Shown: positions 3,728 to 33,240 of the stretch, piece by piece | Numbering within the stretch: the first letter of the stretch is position 1 | Layout of the letters: each line of letters begins with the position of its first letter | DNA from: Rhizobiales bacterium 32-66-11 | GTDB lineage: Bacteria; Pseudomonadota; Alphaproteobacteria; Rhizobiales; Xanthobacteraceae | Direction of reading: 5' to 3' | DNA: 64,000 nucleotides | NCBI GenBank assembly: GCA_002304505.1 | Contig: NCEH01000020.1 | Coordinates: 1-64,000, forward strand | Translations under genes and position numbers: made by a program | Notes under the pieces: generated by a model | Databases searched by the model: none | What the model saw: the letters and a program-made list of their open reading frames with translations, nothing else | Told to the model about the DNA's origin: nothing

Positions 3728-4840
3728 TCAGACGTCCCGGGACTCGAAGTCGATCCGCGGATCGACCAGCATGTAAGTGAGGTCCGACAGCAGGCCGACC
3801 ACGAGGCCGGCCAAGGAGAAGATGTAGAGCGTGCCGAACACCACCGGATAATCCCGGTTCAGCACGCTTTCAAATCCCAGCAGGCCCAGCCCGTCGAGCG
3901 AGAAGATGGTCTCGATCAGCAGCGAGCCGGTGAAGAAGGCGGAGATGAAGGCGCCGGGAAAGCCGGCGATGACGATCAGCATCGCGTTCCGGAACACATG
4001 GCGATAGAGCACGCTGCGTTCGGACAGCCCCTTCATGCGGGCGGTGGTGACATATTGCTTGCGGATCTCTTCCAGGAACGAATTCTTGGTCAGCAAGGTC
4101 ATGGTGGCGAACGCGCCCAGCACCATGGAGGTGAGCGGCAACACCAGGTGCCAGCCATAATCCAAAATCCGCTCGGGCCAGGACATTTGGGCCCAATTGT
4201 CCGAGGTGAGGCCGCGCAGCGGGAACCAATCCAGGAACGAGCCGCCGGCGAACAGGATGATTAGCAGGATCGCGAACAGGAACGAGGGGATGGCATAGCC
4301 GACGATGATCACCGCCGAGGTCCACACGTCGAAGCGCGAGCCGTCGCGCATGGCCTTGGAGATGCCGAGCGGGATCGAGATGGCGTAGGTCAAAAGCGTC
4401 ATCCACAGGCCGAGCGAGATGGAGACCGGCATTTTCTCCGCGATCAGGTCGATGACGCGGATGTCGCGGAAATAGGAGCGGCCGAAATCGAAGGTCGCGT
4501 AATTCTTGATCATCAGCCAGAAGCGCTCATAGGCCGGCTTGTCGAAGCCGAACTGTTTCTCCAGCTCCTGGATGAATTTCGGGTCCAGCCCCTGGGCGCC
4601 GCGATATTTCGAGGCCGAGGCATCGGCCCCGCCACCGCCGGGCATGGCGGCACTGCCGGCGAAATCGCCGCCCTGGCCGGAAATGCGCGAGGTGGCGGAG
4701 GCGCCGTCGCCGGTCAATTGGGCGATCACCCGCTCCACCGGGCCGCCCGGGGCGAACTGCACCACCACGAAGGAAACCAGCATGATGCCGAGGATGGTCG
4801 GGATCATGAGGGCGACACGGCGGATGATATAAGCGAGCAT
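3728..4840 (-). CDS. yejB: Peptide ABC transporter permease YejB-like
   Basis: This is the second permease of the peptide importer, 370 residues, close to the 364 of the enterobacterial protein. The first membrane segment begins right at the N-terminus (LAYIIRRVALMIPTILGIML), as in DppB/OppB permeases, and is followed by the conserved FAPGGP. A large periplasmic insert (about residues 40-110) is rich in Gly, Ala and Ser. The EAA-like loop is VTTARMKGLSERSVLYRHVF. It lies 46 bases after the second binding-protein gene and three bases before yejE. With YejE it forms the channel for short peptides and, in enterobacteria, microcin C; the substrate here is inferred only from the family. Confidence 0.93.
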   Translation of the reverse strand: MLAYIIRRVALMIPTILGIMLVSFVVVQFAPGGPVERVIAQLTGDGASATSRISGQGGDFAGSAAMPGGGGADASASKYRGAQGLDPKFIQELEKQFGFDKPAYERFWLMIKNYATFDFGRSYFRDIRVIDLIAEKMPVSISLGLWMTLLTYAISIPLGISKAMRDGSRFDVWTSAVIIVGYAIPSFLFAILLIILFAGGSFLDWFPLRGLTSDNWAQMSWPERILDYGWHLVLPLTSMVLGAFATMTLLTKNSFLEEIRKQYVTTARMKGLSERSVLYRHVFRNAMLIVIAGFPGAFISAFFTGSLLIETIFSLDGLGLLGFESVLNRDYPVVFGTLYIFSLAGLVVGLLSDLTYMLVDPRIDFESRDV

Positions 4841-29426: not shown

Positions 29427-29569
29427 GGAAATTCTCCTTTTTGCACATTGGTGCTATCGGTGCGCCCAAGCCCCGTGGCGTAAGGACGAACCCGTCCGGC
29501 CCCGGGGAACAACCCGAGGAAGCAGCAAGGGGTTCCTGGCGCCGCCGGGAGCCCGAGGGAGAGACCCCG

Positions 29570-30754
29570 ATGTTGAAAACCGTCGCCGCCTTCGACCGGA
29601 TCGGCGAGGAAAATGCGTTCGCCGTTCTGGCGCGCGCCACCACGCTCGCGAGCCAGGGCCGCGACATCATCAATCTCGGCATCGGCCAGCCCGATTTCCG
29701 CACCCCCGAGCCTATCGTGGAAGCCGCCATCAAGGCGCTGCGCGACGGGCAGCACGGCTATACGCCCTCGGTGGGCATCGCGCCTTTGCGCGAGGCGGTG
29801 ACGGCCGACCTCCACAAGCGCTACGGCGTCGAGGTGGATCCGGGTCTCGTGATGATCGTGCCCGGCGGCAAGGTCACCATGTATGCGGCAATCCGCCTGT
29901 TTGGCGAGCCGGGCGCGGAGATCCTCTATCCCGATCCCGGCTTTCCCATCTATCGCTCGATGATCGAGCACACCGGCGCGACCCCGATCCCGGTGCCGAT
30001 CCGCGAGGAAAACGCCTTCGCCTTCTCGGCCGAGGAGACGCTGGCGCTGATCACGCCGAAGACCCGCCTGCTGATCATCAATTCCCCCGCCAATCCCACC
30101 GGCGGCGTCACCCCCAAGGCCGAGATCGACAAGCTGGTGAAGGGCCTTGCCGCTTATCCCCATGTGGCGATCCTATCGGACGAGATCTACGATCATTTCG
30201 TCTTCGACGGGGAAACCCACCAGACCCTGCTCGCCTATCCGGAGATCCGCGACCGGCTGATTCTGCTCAACGGCTGGTCCAAGACCTATGCCATGACCGG
30301 CTGGCGGCTCGGCTATTCCATCTGGCCGAAGGGCCTGTATGAGCAGGTGCGCAAGCTTTCGGTAAACGCCTGGAGCTGCGTCAATGCCGCGACCCAATAT
30401 GCCGGCATCGCCGCGCTTCAGGGTCCGCAGGATGCGGTGCACGCCATGGTGGCCGAGTTCGACCGCCGCCGCCACGTCGTGGTGGAGGGGCTGAATGCGC
30501 TGCCGGGCATCTCCTGCGCAACGCCGGGCGGGGCCTTCTACGCCTTCCCCAACGTCGCCGGCACCGGCTGGCCCTCGGCCAAGGCGCTCGCCTCCGCCTT
30601 GCTGGAGGAGGCCGGCGTGGCAGTGATCGGCGGGCCGGATTTCGGCGTCTATGGGGAAGGCTATCTGCGGCTATCCTATGCCAATTCGGCCGAGAACATC
30701 CGGGCCGCGCTGGGCCGGATCGCGGCCTTCCTGGCGCAGCGGCAGGTGGCCTGA
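29570..30754 (+). CDS. Class I pyridoxal-phosphate aminotransferase
   Basis: This 394-residue fold-type I aminotransferase starts at ATG 29570 (MLKTVAAFDRIGEENAF) with GGGAGAGA upstream; the frame open to 29441 lacks support. The substrate-gate motif NLGIGQPDF, the cofactor-binding INSPANPTGG and SDEIYDHFVFDG, and the Schiff-base Lys in NGWSKTYAMTGWRLGY are all present, as is the carboxylate-binding Arg near YLRLSYANS. It is closest in appearance to aspartate/alanine-type aminotransferases, but substrate specificity is open. The gene for an LprI-like protein follows 22 bases later and may be cotranscribed. Confidence 0.92.
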   Translation: MLKTVAAFDRIGEENAFAVLARATTLASQGRDIINLGIGQPDFRTPEPIVEAAIKALRDGQHGYTPSVGIAPLREAVTADLHKRYGVEVDPGLVMIVPGGKVTMYAAIRLFGEPGAEILYPDPGFPIYRSMIEHTGATPIPVPIREENAFAFSAEETLALITPKTRLLIINSPANPTGGVTPKAEIDKLVKGLAAYPHVAILSDEIYDHFVFDGETHQTLLAYPEIRDRLILLNGWSKTYAMTGWRLGYSIWPKGLYEQVRKLSVNAWSCVNAATQYAGIAALQGPQDAVHAMVAEFDRRRHVVVEGLNALPGISCATPGGAFYAFPNVAGTGWPSAKALASALLEEAGVAVIGGPDFGVYGEGYLRLSYANSAENIRAALGRIAAFLAQRQVA

Positions 30755-30776
30755 TCCCGCGCCGGGCGGAGGGGGA

Positions 30777-31427
30777 ATGACACGCCGCGCCTTCGCCCGC
30801 ATAATGTTCGCCGGCAGGAAATGCGCCGGTCCTATCCGCGCGCGTTTTGCGCCTGGACGCGCTCCGGCGGCCCCTCTCCTGCTGGCGTTCGCGCTTCTGC
30901 TTGCGATCCCGGACGGCGGGGCGCACGCCCAGCCGCCTGCCTCAACCCCTTCCCCGACCCCGAAGACGGCGGTGCTGGAGCCCTGGCCCTCCACCGCCCG
31001 CTGCCGCGCCGGCGTGGCATTGGCACGCGACTATAATCGCTGCCTCTACGATGCGATCCAGGTGTCCGAGAAGGGGATGGAGGCCGCGCTCGCCAACGCC
31101 TTCGCGGTGATCGAGGCGCGCGGCGACCTTCTGCCCGCCCAGCGCAACCGCTGGCGCATCCTGCTGGACGAGGCGCAGATCCGCTTCGGCATGTATCGCA
31201 ATTTCGATTGCCAGAGCGTGGCGCCGTTCGAGGGGCTGCGCGGCATCGGCAATTTCGAGCAGCGGGCCTTGTGCCTGATCGCCAATAACGAGCGCCGGGC
31301 GGAGGATCTGCGCCGCCGCTATGGCGAGGTGCCCAAGCCCGCCGCGCCCGCGCCGGCCGTGGCGGTGGAGAACATCGGCACCCGCCCCGCCACCTGGCTC
31401 ACCGCCGTGGCGCGGCCGCTGGATTAG
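30777..31427 (+). CDS. LprI/DUF1311-like secreted protein
   Basis: This 216-residue protein has an Arg-rich N-terminus and a hydrophobic export segment (APLLLAFALLLAIPDGGAHAQ, about 33-53), so it is predicted to reach the periplasm. The mature part contains four spaced Cys (STARC, NRC, NFDC, RALC) in a helical frame with AQRNRWRILLDEAQIRF. That matches the DUF1311 domain of lysozyme inhibitor LprI. Start ATG 30777 gives a long n-region; a later Met at about residue 10 is possible. In that family the protein protects peptidoglycan from host lysozyme; whether this applies to an environmental bacterium is unknown. Palindromic repeats follow the gene. Confidence 0.75.
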   Translation: MTRRAFARIMFAGRKCAGPIRARFAPGRAPAAPLLLAFALLLAIPDGGAHAQPPASTPSPTPKTAVLEPWPSTARCRAGVALARDYNRCLYDAIQVSEKGMEAALANAFAVIEARGDLLPAQRNRWRILLDEAQIRFGMYRNFDCQSVAPFEGLRGIGNFEQRALCLIANNERRAEDLRRRYGEVPKPAAPAPAVAVENIGTRPATWLTAVARPLD

Positions 31428-31448
31428 CCGGGCACGCTTCAGACAGAA

Positions 31449-31601
31449 ATCCCCCTCTCCCCGCCGGGGAGAGGGCTGGGGTGAGGGGCGCGCCGCGCGA
31501 GCAAGGGGCCGGGCACTTCCACCCCGAGGGTCCCCCTCACCCGCCCGCTGCGCGGTCGACCTCTCCCCCTCGGGGAGAGGTGAGGGGCCGCCCCTCACCC
31601 A
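31449..31601. repeat. Intergenic palindromic repeat element (REP-like)
   Basis: Two perfect 10-bp hairpins occur: 31453-31462 with 31466-31475 (CCCTCTCCCC core) and 31559-31568 with 31572-31581 (ACCTCTCCCC core). Flanking GTGAGGGG and CCCCTCAC words could form a larger fold. C/T-rich elements of this kind are scattered between genes in many Rhizobiales. This is the only copy in the window, and it fills the gap before kdgK. Confidence 0.8.
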
Positions 31602-31681: not shown

Positions 31682-32551
31682 ATGGCCAAAGTGGTGTGCG
31701 TGGGCGAAGTGATGGTGGAACTGGCGCGCGGCAACGATGGCCGGTTCGGCCTTGCGTTCGCTTATGCCACCGCGCTCGGCGACGATGCCTATTCCGCCCA
31801 GATCCTCGACCTTGCCGCCAGCGAAGGCGTGCAGCGCGAGGCGGTGCTGATCGCCAAGGGGCGGGTGCCGGGCCTCTATCTCATCACCACCGACGATCGG
31901 GGCGAGCGCACCTTTCATTATTGGCGCGACACCGCGCCCGCCCGTTCGCTGTTCGAATTCGAGGGCTGGCAGGGCGTCGCCGAAATCCTGGTGGATGCGC
32001 GGGCGACCTATTTCTCCGGCATCACCTTGTCGCTCTATTCCAATGTCGGGCTCGGCCGGTTTCTCGCGGCGCTGGAGATGGCGGGCGAGCGGGGCGCCTG
32101 GCGCGTGTTCGACGGCAATTACCGCCCGCGCGGCTGGGGCGGCGATGTCGCGCGCGCCCGCATGGTGTTCGCCGAGGCGCTGAAGCGCGCCTCGCTCGCC
32201 ATGCCCACGTTCGAGGACGAGGCCGCGCTCTGGGGCGATGCCTCGCCGCACGCCACCATCGAGCGCATGACCACCTATGGGGTGAGCGAGGTGGTGGTGA
32301 AGAATGGCGCCGGCGGCGCGCTGGTCTATGCCGAAGGGCGCATCGTCGAGGTGCCGGTGGAGCGCGAGGTTCACCCCGTGGACACCACCGGCGCCGGCGA
32401 CAGCTTCAACGCCGCCTATCTCGCCGCCCGGCTGAAGGGCGCGAGCCCGGAAGAGGCGGCGCGCGCCGGCCATCGCCTCGCCGGCACGGTGATCCTGCAT
32501 CGCGGCGCCATCATCCCGCGCGCCGCGCAGGAAGGTGTGAGCGCGCATTGA
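31682..32551 (+). CDS. kdgK: 2-keto-3-deoxygluconate kinase, internally deleted
   Basis: This is a PfkB-family sugar kinase of 289 residues that would make 2-keto-3-deoxy-6-phosphogluconate. The start is ATG 31682 with GAGGAAG upstream. The C-terminal PfkB signature DTTGAGDSFNAAYLAARL is intact and supplies the catalytic Asp. Family-specific parts are also present: GVGEVMVELARG-like start (VCVGEVMVELARG), RVPGLYLI, ERTFHYWRD, FDGNYRPRGW and the GAIIPR end. However, residues 20-35 read GRFGLAFAYATALGDD. The GGDTxNTAVYxAR segment that normally sits between GLAF and YATALGDD, and binds the sugar, is absent. The protein is about 20 residues shorter than usual. The junction is near 31757-31763 and the frame is kept. 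Activity is doubtful. Confidence 0.85.
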   Translation: MAKVVCVGEVMVELARGNDGRFGLAFAYATALGDDAYSAQILDLAASEGVQREAVLIAKGRVPGLYLITTDDRGERTFHYWRDTAPARSLFEFEGWQGVAEILVDARATYFSGITLSLYSNVGLGRFLAALEMAGERGAWRVFDGNYRPRGWGGDVARARMVFAEALKRASLAMPTFEDEAALWGDASPHATIERMTTYGVSEVVVKNGAGGALVYAEGRIVEVPVEREVHPVDTTGAGDSFNAAYLAARLKGASPEEAARAGHRLAGTVILHRGAIIPRAAQEGVSAH

Positions 32552-32592: not shown

Positions 32593-33240
32593 TCAGCCGA
32601 ACTTAGCAGCCCGGGGCAAAGCGGCGGCGACGCTCGCGAGATCGCGGATGGCGGCAAAATCGCCGGCGCGGATCAGATCGGCCGGCACCACCCAGGAGCC
32701 GCCCACGGCCACCACGTTCGGCAGCGCGAGATAGTTCGCCACATTGGCCGGCCCGATGCCGCCCGTGGGGCAGAAGCGCAAATGCGGCAGTGGACCCGCC
32801 ACCGATTTCAGGAAAGCGACGCCGCCCGAAGCCTCGGCCGGGAAGAATTTCAGCACCTCGAAGCCGAGCCCCGACAGCACCATGGCTTCGCTCGTGGTGG
32901 CGCAGCCGGGCAACACCGGCACCGGCGCCTGGGCCAGGGATTCGGCGAAATGGGGGGTCGTGCCAGGGCTCACCAGATAGGCCGCGCCGGCCTCGAGGGC
33001 AGCTTCCACCTGCGCCTGATTGGTGACCGTGCCGGCGCCGGCGAGCGCGCCTTCCACATCGCGCACAATGTGGCGGATCGCCTCCAGCGCCACCGGCGTG
33101 CGCAGCGTCACTTCGATCAGCGGCAGCCCGCCCTGCACCAGCGCGCGGGCGAGCGGCACGGCATCTTCCAGGCGTTCGATCACCACCACCGGGATGACGG
33201 GCGCGCGGGCGACGAAGGGGAGCGGGCTTGGAAGGCTCAT
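32593..33240 (-). CDS. eda: 2-keto-3-deoxy-6-phosphogluconate aldolase
   Basis: This 215-residue class I aldolase cleaves 2-keto-3-deoxy-6-phosphogluconate to pyruvate and glyceraldehyde 3-phosphate, the last step of the Entner-Doudoroff pathway. The Schiff-base Lys is Lys131 in VLKFFPAEA. The general acid/base Glu43 is in LIEVTLRTP, with Arg47 nearby, and the phosphate-binding loop is CPTGGI. Length and motifs are normal. It is convergent with kdgK, whose product feeds it, so the pair forms a small uronate/gluconate-degradation unit. No other pathway gene is in the window. The gene is read away from a 162-base upstream gap. Confidence 0.95.

Follow-up and report, generated by a model that had tools for sequence, protein, structure and literature searches.

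A kdgK ortholog of Rhizobiales bacterium 32-66-11 without its N-terminal GGD-x-x-N segment

Structures of 2-dehydro-3-deoxygluconokinase (KdgK) have been solved from Shigella flexneri (3lhx) and Oceanicola granulosus (4e69/4ebu). Their core fold resembles that of the protein described here, but they contain an N-terminal segment (AGDTFNTAWYLARL in 4e69) that this protein lacks. Human ketohexokinase belongs to the same superfamily; its residues Gly41, Asn42 and Asn45 make direct contact with bound fructose, and the Gly40Arg variant, altered in the di-glycine pair, is inactive (PMC2651755). We equated these residues with the GGDxxN motif of KdgK through the shared family motif, not through an alignment; by this analogy, they support the suggestion of a preliminary description of the locus that the missing segment would contact the sugar. 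The KdgK orthologs of Aquabacter, Xanthobacter and Azorhizobium (NF052444, PF00294) share 52–83% identity with the protein outside the gap, as well as its gene neighbourhood and the catalytic GAGDSF region. In contrast to these orthologs, however, it has no di-glycine hinge, GGDxxN motif or helix alpha1 (18 residues).

The gene lies in a window of 64,000 nucleotides, the whole stretch of DNA that was analysed, among the following features.

29564..30754, plus strand: class I/II aminotransferase, conserved upstream and used as a synteny marker for orthologous kdgK loci
30771-31427: small protein, weakly matching the LprI domain (PF07007, E 3.8e-6)
31682..32551, plus strand: ortholog of kdgK (2-dehydro-3-deoxygluconokinase) from which 18 codons are deleted in frame, identified by translation, profile searches and alignment
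31759..31760, plus strand: deletion junction (F26/A27), with 54 nt absent relative to orthologs and at most 2 nt of microhomology (CG)
32593..33240, minus strand: eda (KDPG/KHG aldolase), convergent and intact (PF01081 full length, E 2.8e-68; ungapped against relatives)

The kdgK frame contained no stops and encoded 289 aa, versus about 307 expected. Its product matched PfkB (PF00294) with an E value of 2.5e-41, but the match started only at residue 21 (profile 48-298); that of the intact ortholog L032 begins at profile position 1. The best NCBIfam match was NF052444 (KdgK) at 252.1 bits, short of the equivalog cut-off of 400 bits, and the N-terminal motif was missing from this alignment. By tblastn, the product was 72–78% identical to the KdgK proteins of Aquabacter, Xanthobacter and Azorhizobium, and the order aminotransferase, kdgK and convergent eda was kept in relatives. 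By best match and conserved gene neighbourhood, 31682-32551 is a true kdgK ortholog, as the preliminary description had it, and its coordinates for the frame were correct.

Two further elements lie between the aminotransferase gene and kdgK. The small LprI-domain protein was conserved at this place in many relatives. Directly upstream of kdgK, at 31447-31600, we observed a palindromic GC-rich repeat (CCCTCTCCCCGCCGGGGAGAGGG ... GGTGAGGGGC), dozens of copies of which occurred across the same genome and that of a genus-mate; it is a dispersed, REP-like element.

Compared with the closest orthologs, the gene lacked 54 nt in frame, corresponding to exactly 18 residues, and this was the only gap of the protein in alignment with its nearest orthologs. 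Translation across the junction read ...ARGNDGRFGLAF up to the deletion point and AYATALGDDAYSAQ... from there on. The orthologs carry GGDTFNTAVYLxRAGxxx at this position, or GGDTFNTAVYLxRAGIET in the nearest relatives; the lost residues are thus the di-glycine hinge, the GGD-x-x-N sugar-binding motif and helix alpha1. At the other end of the protein, the PfkB C-terminal signature DTTGAGDSFNA, with the catalytic Asp, was present at residues 234-244 and invariant with the closest orthologs. The ortholog alignment therefore bore out the earlier reading of an otherwise intact kinase without GGD-x-x-N and the helix that follows, and narrowed the estimated loss of about 18-20 residues to exactly 18.

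A scan of the genome collection yielded 80 ortholog loci; besides Aquabacter, Xanthobacter, Azorhizobium and Ancylobacter, the genomes represented were mostly of Hyphomicrobiales. The segment was nearly invariant among these loci (GGDTFN in about 77 of the 80 alignment rows) and was kept at 79 of these aligned loci, 78 of them with 18 aligned residues and one intact on inspection. At the remaining locus, L082, a TGA stood just before the segment, which was still encoded downstream. This locus (3981-4300; apparently also G020:C199) comes from a Hyphomicrobiales metagenome-assembled genome, and its kdgK, otherwise intact but interrupted by the in-frame TGA directly ahead of the GGD motif, represents either a pseudogene or a sequence error. 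When the N-terminal 97 residues of the short protein were used as query against 296 family genomes, no other ungapped junction occurred among the matches listed, which either began at query residue 21, past the gap, or were gapped by 18 residues. Nor was the same deletion seen among the matches listed from viral contigs, plasmids and family genomes. The genus-mate G001 (79% complete) gave no kdgK match, so the deletion could not be dated within the genus.

We consider it probable that the gene is a recent loss-of-function deletion allele of the single, vertically inherited kdgK of this Xanthobacteraceae bacterium; it looks like an ordinary gene-breaking deletion in one genome rather than an enzyme of a novel type. 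An assembly or consensus error, with an intact kdgK in the true genome, appears unlikely, although the restriction of the deletion to a single genome and the lack of decay in the remainder of the gene would fit such an error, as would the draft state of the assembly (241 contigs, estimated contamination 3.97%). Against this, the junction was located about 31.7 kb from the start of a contig of 134 kb, the neighbouring eda and aminotransferase genes aligned ungapped with relatives, and a 60-aa probe containing the segment found the missing piece nowhere else in the assembly, on no other contig. Furthermore, there was no tandem repeat at the junction, and intact orthologs had no direct repeat across the segment ends (the longest shared word was 8 nt and did not occur at both boundaries). 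Together with the minimal microhomology, this suggests neither repeat slippage nor assembly repeat collapse, and both were rejected as routes to the gap, as no direct or tandem repeats of useful length were available. The 54 bp were probably removed by a short illegitimate deletion that was not repeat-mediated.

The rest of the protein evolved no faster than in relatives. Its distance to outgroups was 97.7 differences, compared with 93.8-105.7 for intact orthologs; pairwise dN was well below dS throughout, and only one change fell on a site that did not vary among the other sequences compared. This indicates that the deletion is either recent or not real, and the relative rate and dN/dS led us to reject pseudogene decay of long standing. 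Old decay of kdgK is accordingly disfavoured by the sequence, and we give hardly any credence to a pseudogene of great age that has long been unused: the loss of an essential motif and the failure to find the upstream uronate genes in the assembly would suit it, but stops, frameshifts and excess substitutions were all absent. However, an open frame and normal constraint would also be expected of a conserved shortened enzyme.

We then modelled the 289-aa protein with AlphaFold2 from a 22-row alignment, and as a control the intact ortholog L032, aligned to the same set of relatives. Mean pLDDT was 82.9 for the short protein versus 90.9 for L032, and fell to about 46-53 at residues 11-30. The control model had strands 11-16 and 22-27 and helix 29-39, all of which were lost from that of the short protein. 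The modelled core superposed on the KdgK structures 3lhx and 4e69/4ebu with TM scores of 0.86-0.88. The models thus suggest that the catalytic core is retained and that the lid strands and helix alpha1, which form the sugar pocket, are lost. The shortened KdgK would still be translated and keep its ATP-binding catalytic core, but would probably be inactive, as its sugar pocket and lid could not form. The preliminary description had expected activity to be lost or changed; loss appears likely from the model and the ketohexokinase motif data, whereas nothing pointed to a change.

A functional shortened kinase, in which the deletion is tolerated or the substrate changed and the lid and sugar pocket are rebuilt from other residues, seems very unlikely to us. 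The in-frame loss and open frame, the intact GAGDSF loop and core, the lack of substitution acceleration and the persistence of the core fold in the model are all compatible with such an enzyme. However, the segment hardly varies across the family, the model lacks helix alpha1 and the lid strands and has low confidence in that region, replacement of one glycine of the homologous motif abolishes ketohexokinase activity (PMC2651755), and no relative shares the short form. We regard as slightly less probable still that a PfkB sugar kinase works here, perhaps on an altered substrate, without the di-glycine hinge, GGDxxN motif and helix alpha1. If the short protein were active, the N-terminal motif could no longer be viewed as essential in this kinase family. 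Otherwise, the deletion has little significance except for annotation: automated methods would label the gene a sugar kinase and predict a KDG branch that probably does not operate in the organism.

The preliminary description had also called for a search for a second kdgK, and no second PfkB-type KDG kinase was found in the genome assembly. Five PfkB matches were present: kdgK itself, a distant match on C222 that may be adenosine-kinase-like by sequence, PdxY on C196, and two frames judged from sequence or position to be putatively ThiD-like (C111) and HldE-like (C16). A DgoK (PF05035) is encoded together with DgoA on a different contig and belongs to the galactonate route.

Growth on glucuronate or galacturonate had been proposed as an assay of the kinase, but neither UxaC nor UxuA was found in the genome assembly, so growth on these substrates would say nothing about KdgK, making the assay unsuitable. 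Both enzymes were present in three close genera, two of which were taken as Aquabacter cavernae and Aquabacter sp. P-9; the third is presumably Azorhizobium. Many kdgK-positive family members also lacked the pair, indicating that its absence alone does not make kdgK useless; because this holds for most of them, loss of UxaC and UxuA is weakened as an explanation of the deletion. Other IlvD/Edd-type dehydratases in the genome might make KDG, and the KDG pathway is therefore not proven dispensable. The Entner-Doudoroff dehydratase Edd was also present, which explains the intact eda independently of kdgK. The convergent aldolase gene is thus intact, as previously described, but carries no information on kdgK, since Edd uses it.

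If the allele is a recent loss of function, three circumstances probably made the deletion tolerable: eda remains in use for the Entner-Doudoroff pathway by way of Edd, the uronate route into KDG (UxaC, UxuA) is apparently absent, and a sugar-acid catabolic cluster of the Aquabacter type is missing beside kdgK in the window. In two Aquabacter genomes (L193, 1744-6181, and L194, 1721-6222), such a cluster was observed upstream of the aminotransferase-kdgK pair; it comprised an HpaI-type aldolase, an L-arabinonate-dehydratase-type gene, a probable binding-protein gene and a GntR-type regulator, none of which occurred within the window. Separately, the DgoK-DgoA pair was located beside an ABC transporter (L207, 157-4312; G000 contig C145), a galactonate-type route with its own kinase.
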